Of a stretch of DNA of 64,000 nt, positions 37,240 through 47,619 are shown one piece after another. Numbering within the stretch: position 1 is the stretch's first letter; each line of letters opens with the position of its first letter. This DNA is from Polyangiaceae bacterium. Lineage in GTDB: Bacteria > Myxococcota_A > Polyangia > Polyangiales > Polyangiaceae. Below the pieces are notes generated by a model. That model was not told the origin of the DNA. It made no database searches and saw nothing but the letters and a program-made list of their open reading frames with translations. The translations under genes and the position numbers were made by a program. The stretch spans positions 62,001-126,000 of the forward strand of contig CANJMI010000010.1 in assembly GCA_947475525.1 (NCBI GenBank), written 5' to 3'.

Positions 37240-37365
37240 AGTGCCGCGAAAGCGACCCGTCGTCGCCGGGCTTCGGCGCGTTACCTTCGAGCAGCGCGAG
37301 TCAAGCGCTGGGCGCCAAGGCTCCTCGTGGACAGCGGCGCCTTGGCGGACCAAGATGATGTCCGT

Positions 37366-38799
37366 ATGCGTGCACTTCACGTCCTCGTCGCTTCGCTGCT
37401 GCTCGGCCCAGCTTCCCTGCCCGCCGTCGCAGCTGAGCCGATGCGGGCCCCTACCCCGGTGAAACGGTCCCGCGTGATCGACATCCCATTCTCGCAATTC
37501 AAGTTAACGAACGGCCTCACGGTGATCTTCCACGAAGACCACACCCAGCCGCTCGTGGTGACCAACATCAACGTGCAAGTTGGCTCGCGCGACGAGCCGA
37601 AGAAGCGCACCGGGTTCGCGCATCTTTTCGAGCACCTCATGTTCATGGGCACAGAACGGGTGCCCGAGAAGATGTTCGACACCTGGATGGAACAGGAAGG
37701 CGGCTCGAACAACGCCTGGACCTCGAACGATCGCACCGACTACTTCGACGTCGGACCGAGCCACATCTTGCCGCTCTTGCTCTGGATGGAGGCCGACCGG
37801 GTCGGCAGCCTCGGCCCGCAGATGACCCTCGATAAGCTCGATGCGCAGCGCGACGTCGTGAAAAACGAACGCCGCCAGACCACCGAGAACGAGCCCTACG
37901 GCCGAGCAGAGTTGTTGCTCCCCGAGCTGCTCTTCCCCGAAGGTCACCCTTACCATCACCCCGTGATCGGCTCCCACGAGGACCTCACCGCCGCGACCGT
38001 GGCCGACGTGCGCGGCTTTTTCGCGCAGCACTACATCCCGCAGAACTTTTCACTCGTCGTCGCGGGAGACTTCGAGCCCGCGAAGGTAAAACCCCTCGTC
38101 GAGAAATACTTCGGAAGCCTGCTGCGTGGACCCGAGCCCGCCCCGCGCCCGAGCGCCGAGCCGCCCGTCCTCGCCGCCGACAAACGCGCAACGCTCGAGG
38201 ACAACGTCACGTTGCCGAAGCTCACGATCGCGTGGCCGAGCCCTGCGCACCTCACCGCCGGCGACGCCGAGCTCGACTTGCTCGCGCAGGTCTTGAGCGC
38301 GGGCAAAGGCAGCCGACTCTACAAGTCACTCGTTTACGAAAAGCAGCTGGCGCAATCGGTGCACGCGTACCAGTCATCGATGGCCCTCGGCTCGTACTTC
38401 GCAATCGACGTCATTTTGCGTCCCGGAGTGTCGTTCGAGACCGTCGAGAAGGCGATCGAAGAGGAGCTCGCCGAGGTGCGCGGCAAGCCGGTCGCAGTGG
38501 AAGAACTCACCCGAGCAAAAAATGCCTTCGAAGCGAGCTTTGTGCAGCGCCTCCAATCCCTCGCGAACCGCGCGAGCATGTTGAACGGTTATTTCGCAGA
38601 GAAAGGCGACCCGGGCTTCATCGCGGGCGACCTGAAGCGTTACCAAGACGCGACACCCGACCTGCTCCTGAGCTTCGCGCGCTCGACACTGCTAACAACG
38701 GGCCGCGTGCTCTTGCGAATCAAGCCCGCCGGCCAACCCGAGCCGGTCGACTCCCCGAAGGATGCACCGAAGTCGCAGCCGGGAAGCGCAGCTAAATGA
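37366..38799 (+). CDS. M16-family zinc metalloprotease, catalytic subunit
   Basis: Protein of about 477 residues. The signal peptide ends near AVAAEP, placing it in the periplasm. The inverted zinc motif HLFEH (H86, E89, H90) and the distal ligand Glu168 (VVKNERR) are present with the usual spacing of about 77 residues. It therefore resembles the active partner of an M16B pair that forms a clam-shell chamber degrading unfolded peptides. ATG 37366 starts the signal peptide; GTG 37327 is unlikely. The stop overlaps the next gene by four bases (ATGA). Confidence 0.95.
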   Translation: MRALHVLVASLLLGPASLPAVAAEPMRAPTPVKRSRVIDIPFSQFKLTNGLTVIFHEDHTQPLVVTNINVQVGSRDEPKKRTGFAHLFEHLMFMGTERVPEKMFDTWMEQEGGSNNAWTSNDRTDYFDVGPSHILPLLLWMEADRVGSLGPQMTLDKLDAQRDVVKNERRQTTENEPYGRAELLLPELLFPEGHPYHHPVIGSHEDLTAATVADVRGFFAQHYIPQNFSLVVAGDFEPAKVKPLVEKYFGSLLRGPEPAPRPSAEPPVLAADKRATLEDNVTLPKLTIAWPSPAHLTAGDAELDLLAQVLSAGKGSRLYKSLVYEKQLAQSVHAYQSSMALGSYFAIDVILRPGVSFETVEKAIEEELAEVRGKPVAVEELTRAKNAFEASFVQRLQSLANRASMLNGYFAEKGDPGFIAGDLKRYQDATPDLLLSFARSTLLTTGRVLLRIKPAGQPEPVDSPKDAPKSQPGSAAK

Positions 38800-40280
38800 A
38801 GCGTTTTTGCTCGGTTTTCGCCCTCGCGCTGGCCCTGCAAGCGTGCGGCTCTGCGCCCAAGTCCGTAAAGCTTCCGGAGACGCACCCTGTGACGAACACG
38901 AACGATTCACTCGCCATTCGCCCGACACTCGACCCCCCAGTCGCGTTCAAGGCGATCGTACCGGAACGCTTTCAGACGAAAGAGGGCCTCACCGTTTGGC
39001 TCGTCGCGCGACCGGCACTGCCGCTCGTGTCCTTCGCCCTGATGGTGCCCTCAGGCTCGGCCGACGACCCGAGTGATCGCCCTGGTCTCGCGCACATCAC
39101 GGCCGACATGCTGGACGAAGGCGCGGGCTCGCGGGGCGCAATTGCGATCTCGACCGCGATCGAAGATCTCGGCGCGCGCTTTTCAACGAGCGCAGGACTC
39201 GACGGCTCGACCATCGCGCTCAGCGTGCTGAAGCAACACCTCGATGCCGGGTTCGAGATCTTCGCCGACTGCATCGCTCGCCCACGCTTCGAAGAAGCCG
39301 AGTACCGGCGCGTGAACGAGCTCTGGCAGAACGCGCTGAAGCGCCGCGACGACGATCCGCAGAGCGTCGCCCGCGTCGTACGAGCCGCCGTACTCTTCGG
39401 CGGTGACACCCCTTATGGGCACCCGACCGGAGGCCATGTGGCGACCGCGCAGGTCTTGAAACTCGGCGAGCTCAAAGCCTTCTACGCCTCCCATTACCGG
39501 CCCGACCGCGCGACGCTGATCGTCGCGGGAGACGTAACGCGCGCCGAGGTCGAAGCCCTGATAGCTCAGCGGCTCGCCGACTGGAAACGCCCGAAAACGC
39601 CGCTTCCCGCACGCGCAAAGCCGACGCCACCACTCGAGAACCGCCCGAAGCTCGTCCTGGTCGACAGGCCGGACGCGCCGCAATCGGTGCTGAGCTACAG
39701 CGCCCCAGGTCTGCGCGCCGCGGACACGTCGTTGCCGCTGCTCGAACTCGTGAACACCGCGCTTGGCGGCTCCTTCACGTCGCGCTTGAACCAAAATCTG
39801 CGCGAGGACCACCACTGGACCTACGGCGCGAGCTCGAGCTTCGCCGAGACCCGCGGTCAAGGGCCGTTCATCGCCCAAGCCGCGGTGTTCGTCGACTCAA
39901 CCGTCCCGGCGCTCCGCGAGCTGCTCTCGGAAATCGGAAAGATGCGCGACAGCGGCCTCACCGAAGACGAGTTCACGAAGGTGCGCGCGCGCGACCTCAC
40001 GGACCTCATTCAAACGAACGAAACACTCGACCACCTCGTCTCGCGCCTCGCCGATTTGGCCGAGCTCGAGCTCCCGGCCGATCACGACTCGCACGCGAGC
40101 GTCGCGCGACAAATGACCACGCGCGCCGCGCTCTCCGCGTTGGCGAAACAGCACCTCGCCCCCGAGCACGCGAGCATCGTCATCGTGGGTCCCCGCAGCG
40201 TGCTCGAGCCGCAGCTCGGCGTGCTTGGTCTCGGCGAGCCGGAGCTTCGCAGCCCGGACGGTCGTCGGGTCACGAGGTGA
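38796..40280 (+). CDS. M16-family protease-like subunit, inactive, lipoprotein
   Basis: Protein of 494 residues with a lipoprotein signal ending in LQAC. It aligns to the M16 fold (GLTVWLVARPALPLVSFALMVPSGS, partial), but the zinc site reads HITAD at residues 100-104 in place of HxxEH, so the catalytic Glu and second His are lost. A region HHWTYGASSSF matches the conserved C-terminal part used by the non-catalytic partner to hold substrate. The gene is coupled to the active subunit, so the two likely form a heterodimer with this partner anchored to the membrane by its lipid. Confidence 0.9.
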   Translation: MKRFCSVFALALALQACGSAPKSVKLPETHPVTNTNDSLAIRPTLDPPVAFKAIVPERFQTKEGLTVWLVARPALPLVSFALMVPSGSADDPSDRPGLAHITADMLDEGAGSRGAIAISTAIEDLGARFSTSAGLDGSTIALSVLKQHLDAGFEIFADCIARPRFEEAEYRRVNELWQNALKRRDDDPQSVARVVRAAVLFGGDTPYGHPTGGHVATAQVLKLGELKAFYASHYRPDRATLIVAGDVTRAEVEALIAQRLADWKRPKTPLPARAKPTPPLENRPKLVLVDRPDAPQSVLSYSAPGLRAADTSLPLLELVNTALGGSFTSRLNQNLREDHHWTYGASSSFAETRGQGPFIAQAAVFVDSTVPALRELLSEIGKMRDSGLTEDEFTKVRARDLTDLIQTNETLDHLVSRLADLAELELPADHDSHASVARQMTTRAALSALAKQHLAPEHASIVIVGPRSVLEPQLGVLGLGEPELRSPDGRRVTR

Positions 40281-41480: not shown

Positions 41481-42680
41481 ATGTTGCGAATCAATTCATT
41501 GGGTGGAGTGGCAGTTCTCGCCGCGCTAGTGGGCTTCACTTCTGCCTGCACGAAAACGCCCGAGCCCGAGAAACCCGACTGCCAGGAACAGCCCGGCATC
41601 GCGTGCATCTGGGCAGGTGCGACGGGTGCCCTCGGCTTCAACGGCGACGGCCATGATCGCCGCGACACGATGCTCTACTGGCCTATCGACATGGAGTTCG
41701 CGCCAGACGGTACGCCATGGATCCTCGACTGGAACAACCACCTCATCCGCAAGCTGAATGGCGATCAGACCTTCACCACCGTCGTCGGTTCGTTCCTCGG
41801 TGACGGCGCCGCCGACGGCAGCGACGCGCAGGCCCCTGGCGCACCTGGCCTCGAGGTCAGCCTCAATCATCCGACCGACATCGTCTTCAAAGCCGATGGC
41901 ACCCTCGTCTTCGCGGCGTGGCACAACCACAAGATCCGCGAGCTCGACCCGACCACCGGCAACGTGGTCATCGTCTACGGAAAAGGTCCCGGGTTCGCCG
42001 GCGACGGCGCCACCGACGCGGCCACGATTCGCTTCAATCAGCCGAGCAAGATCGCCTTCGACTCGAAAGGCTCGTTCTACGTAGTCGATCAGCGCAACTT
42101 CCGCGTGCGCAAGATCTCCGCGGACGGGAGTGAGGTCGGCACGCTCGCCGGCAACGGAAAGAAGGGCTTCTCCGGAGACACCGGACCAGCCATCGACGCG
42201 CAGCTCGAGTTCGAGGCGGGACCGAACCCCGAGCCCTCGGGCGCGGTCGCCGTTCGCACCTCGGACGACGCCGTCTTTGTGGCCGACGCGTTGAACCATC
42301 GCGTCCGAATGATCGACAAAAACGGGATCATCACGACGATCGCCGGCACCGGGACCGACGGTTTTAGCGGGGATGGCGGCAAGGCTACGGACGCTGAACT
42401 CTCGAACGTGAAAGACATGGAATTCGGTCCCGACGGGAGGCTCTACCTTGCCGACGCCGACAACAACCGCATCCGCAGCATCGATCTCGCGACCGGGCTC
42501 ATCGAGACCGTGGCCGGCAACGGAACCAAGGGCAGCGACGAAGTCGATGGGATTGGTGCGCGCGACATCACCCTGTACCGCCCGTTCGGCATTGCGTTCG
42601 ACGCCGCCGGCTCGCTCTACATTTCCGACACCTTCAACAGCCGCATCATCAAGGTCCCCGGCGTCGCCGTGGCGAAGTGA
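41481..42680 (+). CDS. NHL-repeat beta-propeller lipoprotein 1
   Basis: Protein of 399 residues with a lipoprotein signal ending at FTSAC. A short Cys-containing head (PDCQEQPGIACIWAG) is followed by six or so NHL repeats, such as DWNNHLIRKL, AWHNHKIREL, DQRNFRVRKI, DALNHRVRMI and DADNNRIRSI, each preceded by DG. NHL propellers bind proteins, peptides or small ligands. The ATG at 41481 has a good ribosome site, GGAG, six bases before it. The next propeller gene follows after eight bases, so it is the first gene of a four-gene operon. Confidence 0.9.
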   Translation: MLRINSLGGVAVLAALVGFTSACTKTPEPEKPDCQEQPGIACIWAGATGALGFNGDGHDRRDTMLYWPIDMEFAPDGTPWILDWNNHLIRKLNGDQTFTTVVGSFLGDGAADGSDAQAPGAPGLEVSLNHPTDIVFKADGTLVFAAWHNHKIRELDPTTGNVVIVYGKGPGFAGDGATDAATIRFNQPSKIAFDSKGSFYVVDQRNFRVRKISADGSEVGTLAGNGKKGFSGDTGPAIDAQLEFEAGPNPEPSGAVAVRTSDDAVFVADALNHRVRMIDKNGIITTIAGTGTDGFSGDGGKATDAELSNVKDMEFGPDGRLYLADADNNRIRSIDLATGLIETVAGNGTKGSDEVDGIGARDITLYRPFGIAFDAAGSLYISDTFNSRIIKVPGVAVAK

Positions 42681-42688
42681 GCCCTCCA

Positions 42689-43930
42689 ATGAAACGTGTT
42701 CTACCCCTGATCACCTTGAGCCTCTTCGCCTGCTCACCCAAGGGTGAAACCGCAGACGAACCCTGCGTGCCAACCTCCGGCACCATCTGCACGGTCGTCG
42801 GCACCGAGATCCTCGCCCTCGCGGGCGACGGCGCCAAGGCGTCGGCGGCTTCGCTCTACTGGCCGATGGACATGACGATCGGACCGGACGGCAACTGGTA
42901 CATCGTCGACTGGAACAACCACCGCATCCGTAAAGTCGATCAGACCACCGGCCTCATCACGACGATCGCTGGCATCGACGATCTCGGCGACGGACCCGAA
43001 GGACCGGCCACTCAGTCGCACTTCAATCACCCGACCCAGGTCGTGTTCGACGACGACGATCACATGCTGATCGCCGCCTGGCACAACAGCAAAGTGAAGA
43101 GCGTCGACATGAAGACCGGCATCCTCACCGACACCTGCGGTGACGGCCTGCGCTCCTACAAAGGCGACGGCGGCATGGCGAAGGCTGCGTCTTTCGACTT
43201 GACCGTCTCGATGGCCTACGGCCCCGACAAGACGCTCTACATTCTCGATCAAGCCAACCAGCGCATCCGCGCGATCGACAACCAAGACCTGGTCTCGAAC
43301 TACGCAGGCGCACCCTGCGTTGTGAACCAGTGCGCCGACGGGGAAGTTCCGGAGGCCTGCCCGACCAACCAAAAGATGGTGTGCAACGTCGCCATGAACG
43401 CCGCGCTGTGCACCGCGACGCCCGGCTGCCTTGGCGGCTTCGCAGGTGATGGCGAAACAGCCGACAAGTTGCGCATGAAGCAACCGGTCTCGCAGAGCGC
43501 GGACCCCGGCGGACGCCTCGTCGTCGATGCCGAAGGCAATCTCTATTTTAGCGACATCCTGAACCATCGGGTCCGTAAGATCGACGCGAAGACGAAAGTC
43601 GTGACGACGGTTGTCGGAAGCGGCGAGAAGGGCGTCGCGGGCGACGGCGGGAAGGCAACAGCCGCGCAAATGAACCGGCCGAGCGATCTCGCATTGGCGG
43701 CCGACGGCACCCTCTACGTCGCGGACACGTACAACTCGTGCGTGCGAGCCGTGAAGGACGGCATCATCACCACCGTCGCAGGCCAGTGCGGAAAGGACGG
43801 CTTCTCCGGTGACCGCGGCGCCCCAACCGAAGCGCTCCTGCATCGGCCGTACGGCATCGAGCTTGCGGCGAATGGGGACTTGTACATCGCCGACACGTTC
43901 AACGGCCGCATCCGAGTCGTCACGAAGTAG
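42689..43930 (+). CDS. NHL-repeat beta-propeller lipoprotein 2
   Basis: Protein of about 413 residues. The signal peptide ends in the lipobox LSLFAC. A disulfide-like segment (CVPTSGTICTVVG) precedes NHL blades, including DWNNHRIRKV, AWHNSKVKSV, DQANQRIRAI, DILNHRVRKI and DTYNSCVRAV, ending DTFNGRIRVV. It differs from NHL protein 1 by a Cys-rich loop (about six Cys, around residues 205-245) inserted between blades 3 and 4. ATG 42689 is used because the GTG at 42677 overlaps the previous stop and lies ahead of the signal peptide. Confidence 0.9.
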   Translation: MKRVLPLITLSLFACSPKGETADEPCVPTSGTICTVVGTEILALAGDGAKASAASLYWPMDMTIGPDGNWYIVDWNNHRIRKVDQTTGLITTIAGIDDLGDGPEGPATQSHFNHPTQVVFDDDDHMLIAAWHNSKVKSVDMKTGILTDTCGDGLRSYKGDGGMAKAASFDLTVSMAYGPDKTLYILDQANQRIRAIDNQDLVSNYAGAPCVVNQCADGEVPEACPTNQKMVCNVAMNAALCTATPGCLGGFAGDGETADKLRMKQPVSQSADPGGRLVVDAEGNLYFSDILNHRVRKIDAKTKVVTTVVGSGEKGVAGDGGKATAAQMNRPSDLALAADGTLYVADTYNSCVRAVKDGIITTVAGQCGKDGFSGDRGAPTEALLHRPYGIELAANGDLYIADTFNGRIRVVTK

Positions 43931-43940
43931 CGCCAAAAGC

Positions 43941-44477
43941 ATGGCTTCCGATCAAAACCCCGCGCGCGCGACGCTGCTGTTTGGCTGCGCGGTGGTTCTC
44001 TCGATTGGCACAGCGTGCAGCCCGGCTCCCACGCCGCCGGCGTCGATCGAACCGTTGTGGCCCGCCGATTATGCTGCGAGCTACACGCAGGTTCGACCGT
44101 GTCGACGCAGCATCGATCACGATCTCGGTTACGTGACCATCCACGCCAACCCTTCGTCAAACGAGGCCTACGCGAAGCGTGACGCGCCGTTTCCCGTTGG
44201 CTCGACGATCCTCAAGGTGGAATACGACGACGAAGAGTGCACGACACTGCGAGGCTTCACCGTGATGTTGCGCGAGCCCGCAGGCTACGACCCTGGCTTC
44301 GGCGACTGGCACTGGCAAAAGGCCGACGCGGCGCGCACCGTGTTTCTCGACGGCAAGCGCTCGATGCCGCCCGCCAACCCACCCACGGCGATCGATCGTT
44401 GTGCGAGGTGCCACGATGACTGCGGCAAAGCGCCGGACGGGTTCGACGGGACTTGCTCGGCCGTCAACGCGATGTGA
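43941..44477 (+). CDS. Cytochrome P460-like c-type heme lipoprotein
   Basis: Protein of 178 residues. The lipobox is SIGTAC (Cys26). The rest fits the cytochrome P460 family. It has YVTIHANPSSN near residue 64, PVGSTILKVEYDD with the Lys at about residue 92, FTVMLREPAGYDPGFGDWHW around 106-125, and a C-terminal c-heme site CARCH at residues 154-158. P460 cytochromes oxidise hydroxylamine or bind NO with a Lys-heme crosslink, but many paralogues have unknown roles. It lies inside a run of propeller lipoproteins ten bases after NHL 2 and fourteen bases before NHL 3. A longer frame opens at 43809 inside the previous gene and is not used. Confidence 0.82.
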   Translation: MASDQNPARATLLFGCAVVLSIGTACSPAPTPPASIEPLWPADYAASYTQVRPCRRSIDHDLGYVTIHANPSSNEAYAKRDAPFPVGSTILKVEYDDEECTTLRGFTVMLREPAGYDPGFGDWHWQKADAARTVFLDGKRSMPPANPPTAIDRCARCHDDCGKAPDGFDGTCSAVNAM

Positions 44478-44491
44478 CGGACAGTGGCCGA

Positions 44492-45601
44492 ATGAGGACG
44501 GTGAAGCGTGACGGCCTCTACCTCGCGCTCGGGCCTGTCGCTGCGCTCGCGCTCGCCGCTTGCAGCCCTGCCGCCGCGCCACCTTGCGAAGGAGCGGGCG
44601 TCATTTGCCGCGTCGCCGGCACCGGACTTGCGGCCTTCGCTGGCGACGGCAAACCGGCCACCGAAACGGCGCTCTACCTCCCTTCGGCGGTTCGCCGTGG
44701 CCCGGACAACCTCATCTACGTCATGGACTTCAACAACCACCGCCTGCGTCGTGTAGGCAGCGACGGAGCGATGCGCACCGCGATCGGAGTCGGGCTGCAC
44801 GCGTTCGCCGTCGAAGGCGCAAACGCACTCGCCACGCCCCTCGAGAACCCGGTGGACTTCGGCTTCGACGAGAGCGGCGCTGTCGTGTTCGTCTCTTACC
44901 ACGATCCGCGCATTCTCCGTGTGGGGGCGCCGGGCACGCTCGAGGTGCTGGCGGGGACGGGTGATGTCGGTGACGACGGCGACGAAGGTCCTGCGCTCGC
45001 AGCGCGGTTCCACCAACTCGCAGGCATGAGCATCGCGCCCGATGGACGCATCGCCGTCAGCGACGACGAGGCCCACCGGATTCGCGTCCTCGAAGCCGGC
45101 ACCATGAGATCCGTTGCTGGAACGAGTGAAAACGCTGGGTTTTCAGGAGACGGCGGACCTGCGAAGGACGCCTTGCTCGACGCACCGCGCGGCCTTGCGT
45201 TCGACGTTGAAGGCCGGCTCTACCTTGCGGACAGCGGAAATCATCGCATCCGGCGCGTCGAAAAAGACGGCACCATCACGACCGTCTGCGGCAACGGCAC
45301 CAAGGGCGCAGGTGGCGACGGCGGCCTCGCGAAAGACGCATCGCTCGACTCGCCCGAAGGCGTGGCGGTAGGCGCCGACGGCTCGCTCTACGTCGCCGAC
45401 ACCGGGAATCATCGCATCCGCCGCGTCGATCCGAATGGCGTCATCGGCACGCTGGTCGGCAGCGACGCGGGCTTCGACGGCGACGGCGGCGCCGCGACCC
45501 TTGCGCACCTCCGTGGGCCATCGCGGATCAGCCTCGATGGGGACGTGCTCTTCGTAGCCGACCAACGGAACAATGTGGCGCGGCTCGTCTTCTTACGTTG
45601 A
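44492..45601 (+). CDS. NHL-repeat beta-propeller lipoprotein 3
   Basis: Protein of about 369 residues with lipobox LALAAC. The disulfide-like head (CEGAGVICRVAG) and blades DFNNHRLRRV, DDEAHRIRVL, DSGNHRIRRV and DTGNHRIRRV parallel those of the two upstream propellers. The final blade reads DQRNNVARLV. It starts fourteen bases after the P460-like gene and is the last gene of this operon. The ATG at 44492 opens the signal peptide; the earlier start at 44453 overlaps the P460 gene. Confidence 0.9.
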   Translation: MRTVKRDGLYLALGPVAALALAACSPAAAPPCEGAGVICRVAGTGLAAFAGDGKPATETALYLPSAVRRGPDNLIYVMDFNNHRLRRVGSDGAMRTAIGVGLHAFAVEGANALATPLENPVDFGFDESGAVVFVSYHDPRILRVGAPGTLEVLAGTGDVGDDGDEGPALAARFHQLAGMSIAPDGRIAVSDDEAHRIRVLEAGTMRSVAGTSENAGFSGDGGPAKDALLDAPRGLAFDVEGRLYLADSGNHRIRRVEKDGTITTVCGNGTKGAGGDGGLAKDASLDSPEGVAVGADGSLYVADTGNHRIRRVDPNGVIGTLVGSDAGFDGDGGAATLAHLRGPSRISLDGDVLFVADQRNNVARLVFLR

Positions 45602-45641: not shown

Positions 45642-46187
45642 CTACGGAGCGTCGGGCTGAAAGACGACGGGACTCCGCGGCGCGCCTTCGTGAACGTCAC
45701 CATTGCCGTACCAAACGAGATAACTCGGCTCGACCGCACCATCGAGCGTGAGCTCGACGTCGAGCAGCGCACCTGGCTTCGACACGAGCGTGATGCCGTC
45801 GCTGTCGACATCGGTGGAGCTGACGAACGTGAAGGTTCCGTCTCCGTGATCGTCGATGCGGTCACCCGCTTCGAAGTCGAGAGCGGCGAGCGTATCGATG
45901 CCCCCGCGGGGATAGGCATAGACGCCAAACGCGCAGTTGTAGCCGGTTTTTTTCGTGTCGCAGGTCGTCCAGAGATGCCACGTGCCACCGCGCTCGTACT
46001 CGACGAGTAGGGCCGCGCCTTCACCAAGCGACGTGCTCAGCGTGTGCCCGGCGTCGATCGTCGTGAAGTAAGGATCCGCCTCGCTCGCATCGTACAAGCC
46101 GCCGTCGCCGCGGTGGTCACCACACGCGGCGGAACCGAGCAAAAGGGCAAGCGCCGCAAGAGAACTGAGTTTTTCAAACCGTGCCAT
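45642..46187 (-). CDS. Small lipoprotein of unknown function
   Basis: Protein of about 181 residues with a clear lipoprotein signal (LLLGSAAC). It holds two Cys within a TCDTKKTGYNC segment and an acidic, probably beta-rich body without recognised motifs. The frame extends upstream to 46310 through the 3' repeat of the DUF6600 gene, but that part is a repeat read-through. ATG 46187 gives the signal peptide. It converges on NHL protein 3. Confidence 0.6.
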   Translation of the reverse strand: MARFEKLSSLAALALLLGSAACGDHRGDGGLYDASEADPYFTTIDAGHTLSTSLGEGAALLVEYERGGTWHLWTTCDTKKTGYNCAFGVYAYPRGGIDTLAALDFEAGDRIDDHGDGTFTFVSSTDVDSDGITLVSKPGALLDVELTLDGAVEPSYLVWYGNGDVHEGAPRSPVVFQPDAP

Positions 46188-46236
46188 CGGGTAACCCTCC
46201 GCGTCGCAAATGCGATGAACGAATACTAGCTCAGGT

Positions 46237-47619
46237 TCACCGGCGACGCCCGCCACCGAATGACCGACCCCCGCCGCCGAATGACCGACCCCCGCCACCG
46301 AATGACCCACCCCCGCCGCTGCTCGAAGGACGGCTCACCGACTGCGAGCTCCCGCTCGAAGGACGGCTCACCGACTGCGAGCTCCCGCTCGAAGGACGGC
46401 TCACCGACCGCGAGCTCCCGTTCGAAGGACGGCTCACCGAATACGAGCTCCCGCCCGACGGACGGCTCACCGAATACGAACTCCCGCCATAAGACCGCCC
46501 GCTGTACGAAGGCGAGGGTGCGAACGTCCGCGAGGACTGCCCCCGCGCAGGGTACCCGCGGTTTGGGTTGGGGGCGAACGACGAGGCGTTCCGCGGCGCC
46601 GGATTGCTGCGCGTCGCGTAAACAACTCGAGGACGGAGAGAAGCTGGCGCGGCGCTACCGACTGCTCGGGCCGTGGCCGGTACGGCCTGCGTGGCTCGCC
46701 AATTCGAGGGCAATTGAAGCTTGATCGCCCGGGCGTCGTGACTGCCACGAATCTTCGGCGCCGACGCTGCGGGGATCCCGGCCGCGGCCAAACTCGGTGA
46801 CTGCGGTCGAGCGGCAACGTAAACCTTGCCCGACGCGCTGTAGGGGGTCTTTCCATTGACGACAGCGTGAGCGTGGAGATGCCCGCCGCCGCCCGCCCCC
46901 CCGCCACCACCGTGACCACCGTGACCATAGTGGACGTTGGTGTTCTGGATGATGCGCTGCACAACGACGCGGTCGCGAACGATGTAGTTCCGCCAGTACG
47001 GCGAGAAGAAGTACCCCGTCGGGCAGAACCACCAAGGGATCGACGCTCCCCAGCCGTAGCCGACGGCATAGCCGTTCATCCAAATGTAGCTCGGAGGCAT
47101 CGGGGCCCAACCGACGTAGTCGTATCCCACGGAGCCGGTACGCCACATCACCCAAGCAGGCGCGTAAACGCGGCCCGGGATCCAGGACCATCCGCGCGCA
47201 GTCAGCCAAACCCAGCGACCGTAATGGAACGGGATGTAGCCCCAGTCGTAATCGCTCTGCCAGAGCCACTCGCCGTCGTCCCCGACAGCCCACCGACCCG
47301 CCGTCCGATACGGGGCAAACTCAGGCCCGACCTCGGCCGAATTCGGTACCCAGACGGTGCCGTACTTCGCGTCGTCGACCCATGTGCCGTGCGAGGAGAG
47401 TTGCTCGCGAAATGCGGTAAGAGCGGAGGCGTCGGTGTCGGCTTCGTAGTCGTAATCACTCGCCGGGGGCACCGCTGCAGAGGCGCTCACCTCGGCGCTC
47501 ACGGATGCAGCCGGGGGAGGGGCCGCGGGTTGAGCCGCCGACACCGCTGCGAAAGCGAAAACCGTCGAAGCGATCGCGTATGCGAACGTCCAGCGTGACA
47601 CCATCATACCTGACATCAT
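46237..47619 (-). CDS. Secreted YXWGXW-repeat (DUF6600-like) protein with Gly/Ser repeat tail
   Basis: Protein of 460 residues with a signal peptide (about residues 10-30, YAIASTVFAFAAVSAAQP). An Ala/Pro linker is followed by a Trp/Tyr-rich domain (residues 70-235) containing GTWVDDAKYG, YRTAGRWAV, WSWIPGRVYAPAWVMWR and YVGWAPMPP. These are marks of the YXWGXW/DUF6600 family of secreted proteins with unknown function. The C-terminal 200 residues are low-complexity Ser/Arg/Gly. They include five copies of an 11-residue unit (SRPSSGSSQSV) and a terminal GGGRSF repeat with a poly-Arg end. The repeats suggest a surface or matrix role. Confidence 0.7.
   Translation of the reverse strand: MMSGMMVSRWTFAYAIASTVFAFAAVSAAQPAAPPPAASVSAEVSASAAVPPASDYDYEADTDASALTAFREQLSSHGTWVDDAKYGTVWVPNSAEVGPEFAPYRTAGRWAVGDDGEWLWQSDYDWGYIPFHYGRWVWLTARGWSWIPGRVYAPAWVMWRTGSVGYDYVGWAPMPPSYIWMNGYAVGYGWGASIPWWFCPTGYFFSPYWRNYIVRDRVVVQRIIQNTNVHYGHGGHGGGGGAGGGGHLHAHAVVNGKTPYSASGKVYVAARPQSPSLAAAGIPAASAPKIRGSHDARAIKLQLPSNWRATQAVPATARAVGSAAPASLRPRVVYATRSNPAPRNASSFAPNPNRGYPARGQSSRTFAPSPSYSGRSYGGSSYSVSRPSGGSSYSVSRPSNGSSRSVSRPSSGSSQSVSRPSSGSSQSVSRPSSSGGGGSFGGGGRSFGGGGRSFGGGRRR
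46259..46321 (-). repeat. 21-bp tandem repeat encoding GGRSFGG
   Basis: Three 21-base units, differing at one or two positions, at the 3' end of the DUF6600-like gene. Confidence 0.9.
46325..46489 (-). repeat. 33-bp tandem repeat encoding SRPSSGSSQSV-type units
   Basis: Five 33-base units (46325-46357, 46358-46390, 46391-46423, 46424-46456, 46457-46489). The first two are identical and the others drift by two to five bases, all in frame. Confidence 0.95.

Follow-up and report, generated by a model that had tools for sequence, protein, structure and literature searches.

PVC-type heme-binding CxxCH proteins (TIGR02604) combine a beta-propeller with a c-type heme. Propellers and c-hemes also occur together in the hydrazine synthase of anammox bacteria, in one extracytoplasmic complex (PMC12758564). 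Members of the P460/c'-beta superfamily oxidize NH2OH or bind NO, have potentials of about -200 to -400 mV and, where characterized proteins lack the distal carboxylate, show no NH2OH oxidation (PMC11928373). The same 2025 review describes the function of "halfway house" P460-type proteins as unresolved.

In the 64,000-nucleotide stretch of Polyangiaceae DNA analyzed here (the window), five neighboring genes encode propeller lipoproteins and a P460-type heme c lipoprotein. An earlier reading made from the letters alone (the sequence-only reading) knew of no described system with this layout, and we found no description of a propeller–P460 combination in the open-access papers searched; the system appears to be undescribed. 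Lipoproteins that had been annotated one by one, as "NHL repeat" or "P460" or not at all, become one conserved, testable unit of five. With it comes a large, clearly bounded P460 subfamily in which the cross-link lysine is kept, the catalytic carboxylate is missing, and candidate partner proteins are at hand. The explanation that we favor, and judge a little better than even as a whole, is a propeller assembly with a P460-type, replaceable heme c subunit that is not a hydroxylamine oxidase. The five genes would encode a self-contained extracytoplasmic lipoprotein assembly, with the WGTS, NHL1, and NHL2 proteins as core propellers. A near-invariant patch on the top face of NHL1 and NHL2, over blades 1–3, would bind a ligand or a partner. 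As the heme c subunit, the P460-type protein would probably serve redox or small-ligand chemistry, and its place could be taken by other heme proteins of c type.

Gene set and conservation

The unit begins with a WGTS-type propeller lipoprotein (P0005; 40347–41372). It is followed on the same forward strand by the propeller lipoproteins NHL1 (P0001; 41481–42680) and NHL2 (P0002; 42689–43930), a mono-heme c lipoprotein of the P460/c'-beta superfamily (P0003; 43941–44477; assigned from homologues, model fold, and alignment), and NHL3 (P0004; 44492–45601), a propeller lipoprotein that is an optional member. The sequence-only reading had reported the last four as consecutive genes at 41481–45601, separated by 8, 10, and 14 bases; translation bears this out to the base, and the gaps are correct. 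The lipobox that it saw in each is present as TSAC (NHL1), LFAC (NHL2), GTAC (P460-like), and LAAC (NHL3), and all five products of the unit are predicted lipoproteins, with lipoboxes judged by eye. The WGTS gene, absent from that reading, is the fifth member; it lies 108 bases from NHL1 in the window, and its relatives overlap or touch NHL1 in other genomes. A promoter and terminator scan of the region was uninformative.

Directly upstream of the unit are tandem M16-type zinc peptidase-like genes with a 4-base overlap (37327–38799, with an HLFEH motif, and 38796–40280); an M16-type peptidase relative stood beside the unit at just one other locus in the neighbor screen. A small lipoprotein-like ORF (45642–46310, minus strand) is convergent with the operon, and homologues of it lie next to the cluster in L021 and L023, from two further genomes of the genus.

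Five protein profiles were run over neighborhoods from genomes of the order and class, plus 80 loci of a species-level genome collection. For that collection the query was a propeller alignment, since a scan of genome contigs with P0003 alone gave no match. Removal of duplicates left 81 core-bearing loci besides the window, or 82 non-redundant loci with it. NHL1 precedes NHL2 in all 82, two of them with both as one fused protein (L222, a single 727-codon frame, and L229). Natural fusions likewise join WGTS to NHL1 in L030 (one 726-codon frame) and L058. The commonest layouts among the 81 loci are WGTS>NHL1>NHL2>P460 (17) and WGTS>NHL1>NHL2>NHL3 (15). The former order is found in the same genus, in other families of the order, and in several families of the class; order is kept across dozens of genomes at roughly 35–80% protein identity, and a few other phyla also carry the set. 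NHL3 may follow P460 in either direction: it runs the same way in the window's genus, and in other lineages it adjoins P460 and converges on it. The component genes are densely packed in the same direction, with overlaps or near-contact in many genomes. This recurrence of the same order is not chance, and we regard the genes as a conserved unit with very high confidence. We also consider it reasonably probable that the proteins would be in physical contact within one complex.

Membership of the P460 gene is more variable. It is in the block at 44 of the 82 loci (the window and 43 of the other 81) and missing from 38, some of them on short contigs; the heme subunit is therefore optional. Carriers with P460, named from MAG or strain titles, are Sandaracinaceae, Polyangiaceae, Enhygromyxa, Kofleriaceae, Archangium, Gemmatimonadetes, and "Bacterium HR30," while propellers without P460 occur in Nannocystis, Latescibacteria, Zixibacteria, and Chloroflexi. 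Among the class-sample genomes with a strict NHL2 match (six candidates scored per genome), 32 of 34 had P460 in the NHL2 cluster, G160 and G309 being the exceptions. Mapping the P460 label onto the NHL2 tree takes 12 changes, versus 27 with shuffled labels; consequently, P460 presence is strongly clade-bound, yet has changed several times. The label "P460-" of two loci on this tree (L026 and L028) is an artefact of the 400-base adjacency rule, their P460 being upstream of WGTS. P460 proteins without propellers also exist. The NHL–NHL–P460 order, often with NHL3 behind it as in the sequence-only reading, does hold far beyond close strains, to class level, but the P460 gene and the propellers also occur apart, an outcome that this reading had in part named as its own refutation. 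Neither NHL2 nor the cluster P460 had a match in one 99% complete species of the window's own genus (G003), which makes the unit dispensable.

Distance matrices of the components correlate (NHL1–NHL2, 0.87; NHL2–P460, 0.84; WGTS–NHL1, 0.86; overall r 0.75–0.87, permutation p 0.001). Such correlations are expected of a jointly inherited unit, and plain vertical descent of neighboring genes would produce them too. Of the remaining neighbor families, the most widespread is Ser/Thr-kinase-like, at only 11 of 82 loci; no regulator or transporter partner was found in the neighbor-gene screen of the 82 loci. Two MAGs titled Klebsiella pneumoniae (L174 and L196) carry the cluster; on the NHL2 tree they fall with deltaproteobacterial loci, and their titles are probably wrong.

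Propellers and a candidate binding face

Matches to NHL (PF01436) and TEN_NHL (PF25021) lie far over cut-off in NHL1, NHL2, and NHL3, PF01436 scoring 68–104 bits versus 20. Pfam and the predicted model make NHL2 a six-bladed propeller (pLDDT 91.3, pTM 0.89), with a teneurin-like protein (9ifo), SOQ1, teneurins, and NHLRC2 as its best structural matches. The Cys-containing head that the sequence-only reading had seen in the three propellers is there as the pairs C34/C42 (NHL1), C26/C34 (NHL2), and C32/C39 (NHL3), and the lipobox Cys of NHL2, C15, is at least 90% conserved. The WGTS protein is a propeller of "WGTS/DVWAVG" type. Its own Pfam search gave no family over cut-off and a PDB profile search with its family gave no match; some relatives match Rax2.

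Conservation in NHL2 is concentrated in the B-C loops of blades 1–3: WNNH in blade 1 (42911–42922, mean column identity 0.95), WHNS in blade 2 (43079–43090, 0.99), and QANQ in blade 3 (43250–43261, 0.99). Identity in these loops is 0.95–0.99, versus 0.62–0.68 in blades 4–6. NHL1 has the same motifs, with conserved DWNNH, NHPT, and AWHN. The B-C loops of propellers usually form the ligand face, and the near-invariant loops of blades 1–3 point to a candidate binding face on NHL1 and NHL2.

Teneurins are adhesion proteins, and the presence of their NHL domains among the best matches of NHL2 would suit a surface recognition or adhesion array in which the propellers bind cell-surface partners, with the P460 gene as a passenger or accessory. 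The prediction that all five products are lipoproteins and the frequent occurrence of propellers without P460 fit this picture as well. However, a passenger would be unlikely to remain in one slot, heme motif and lysine invariant across 41 sequences, and to be kept in 32 of the 34 class-sample genomes with NHL2. We therefore regard an array of this kind as improbable.

In a quinoprotein-like dehydrogenase, the top face of an NHL propeller would bind substrate and cofactor, and electrons would pass to the c-heme subunit, as in PVC-type propeller/heme c proteins. The conserved W/H/N/Q patch and an interchangeable c-heme subunit are consistent with such an enzyme, as are sub-threshold matches of the propellers to TIGR02604, TIGR03606, and PF07995. 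However, these matches are far below cut-off (23.7–43.3 bits against 122.2 for TIGR02604) and could be generic NHL similarity. Heme is also absent in many loci, and the potentials of P460 and c'-beta proteins are very low, which makes them poor for taking electrons from a quinone cofactor. Taken together, a dehydrogenase seems unlikely.

The P460-type protein and its possible replacement

In the propeller assembly that we prefer, P0003 would be the heme subunit of the complex, with a redox or ligand role; we give this about an even chance. Against Cytochrome_P460 (PF16694), P0003 itself scores 18.1 bits, below the cut-off of 27, whereas 18 of 18 homologues match the family (best 4.7e-10); a distant P460, used as a single-sequence phmmer query, returned weak matches only. 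The AlphaFold model has the P460/c'-beta beta-sheet fold. All of the top 17 VIA-align rows are of this superfamily (Z 13.7–9.8), and the next unrelated structure has Z 4.2. By its predicted fold, P0003 belongs to the P460/c'-beta superfamily. Its single C-terminal CxxCH, the CARCH noted in the sequence-only reading (C154–H158; 44400–44414), is present and invariant in the 41 cluster members.

Two other positions define the heme pocket. In the alignment to solved structures, K92 (codon 44214–44216) corresponds to McCP F61, TtCP F61, and NeCP M79, the PDB-listed variants F61V and F32V fixing the McCP numbering. Table 2 of PMC11928373 gives McCP Phe61, TtCP Phe61, and NeCP Met79 as counterparts of the cross-linking Lys70/78/106. 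All 41 cluster members have Lys here. T107 (codon 44259–44261) aligns with McCP Gly82 and NeCP Ala109, where active P460s have their catalytic Glu96/Asp102. This residue is T in 34 members, V in three, S in two, and G and A in one each, and acidic in none. P0003 is thus P460-type by its lysine and of the non-catalytic type by its pocket. The family profile is also without the five-residue stretch that bears the Phe cap in McCP. Additional cysteines are conserved (C54, C100, and C172 invariant; C161 in 35 of 41), and two disulfides are likely. We infer that P0003 would be loaded with heme and may be cross-linked to it through the lysine.

The sequence-only reading had suggested NO or hydroxylamine handling, with the P460 subunit oxidizing NH2OH or binding NO and the propellers holding it at the surface. 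Several features could be read in this way, including the P460/c'-beta fold of P0003, the Lys at its cross-link position, and the NH2OH oxidation or NO binding of superfamily members (PMC11928373). However, none of the 41 sequences has D or E at the catalytic carboxylate position, and carboxylate-less proteins of the superfamily are inactive on NH2OH. N-oxide marker genes are also rare: among 25 genomes with the cluster, Cu-nitrite reductase was over cut-off in two and the hydroxylamine-oxidoreductase-type Multi-haem_cyto family was found in one. In one genome, Haem_bd or cytochrome c takes the P460 slot. Together, the missing carboxylate, the rare markers, and this replacement argue against a dedicated NO/hydroxylamine role, to which we attach little likelihood; P0003 may still bind NO alone.

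Two P460 proteins of other kinds were seen along the way. The genome of the window has a second P460-domain protein elsewhere (L001, G000:C14:105119-105403), over the Pfam cut-off, and a 506-codon open frame with three P460 matches (G069:C320:247-1488) is a possible multi-P460-domain protein.

The replacement case comprises two loci of one metagenome-assembled SAR202 genome, and one of the two heme motifs is CX3CH. The gene behind NHL2 is Haem_bd in one copy (PF14376, 6.8e-35) and cytochrome c in the other (PF00034, 1e-10), the latter with the CX3CH motif. On the NHL2 tree, the SAR202 NHL2s nest inside the main P460-bearing clade. Among 294 genomes related to this one, the unit was found in none but the SAR202 genome itself (E 1e-55). 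A P460-less NHL cluster in G043 has a two-CxxCH protein upstream on the same strand (L057:10732-11625, minus strand), with no Pfam match. Read most simply, the propeller core would take up a heme subunit of c type, as a rule P460, and use it in redox or small-ligand chemistry.

Comparison with known systems

It is possible, if somewhat doubtful, that the unit represents a new class of extracytoplasmic propeller–heme complex, in which propeller lipoproteins, three or four in number and with a conserved recognition face, would take up a plug-in c-type heme subunit from unrelated heme families and act as a surface redox enzyme or sensor. Among described systems, hydrazine synthase has a seven-bladed beta subunit and carries its hemes in the alpha and gamma subunits, so that the resemblance is one of layout only; it was absent from the sequence matches of the propeller search. 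TIGR02604 proteins have another heme domain in the same polypeptide, and the window propellers fall far below the cut-off of that family. The six-bladed propellers of NHL/teneurin type (9ifo, SOQ1, NHLRC2) share the fold and the NHL repeats, but the window propellers stand alone as bacterial lipoproteins and add an N-terminal Cys pair and a special loop motif over blades 1–3.

For P0003, the closest relatives are the proteins of the P460/c'-beta superfamily (NeP460, McP460, NsP460, McCP, TtCP, and NeCP), with which it shares the fold (Z 9.8–13.7) and the C-terminal CxxCH and, with the P460s, the Lys at the cross-link position. It differs from them in the distal carboxylate, replaced by Thr or a small residue much as by Ala in the inactive NsP460, in a shorter loop where McCP has its Phe cap, and in extra conserved Cys. 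It is also a lipoprotein encoded alongside propellers. With the lysine kept and the catalytic carboxylate missing, P0003 resembles the "halfway house" proteins of the 2025 review (PMC11928373).
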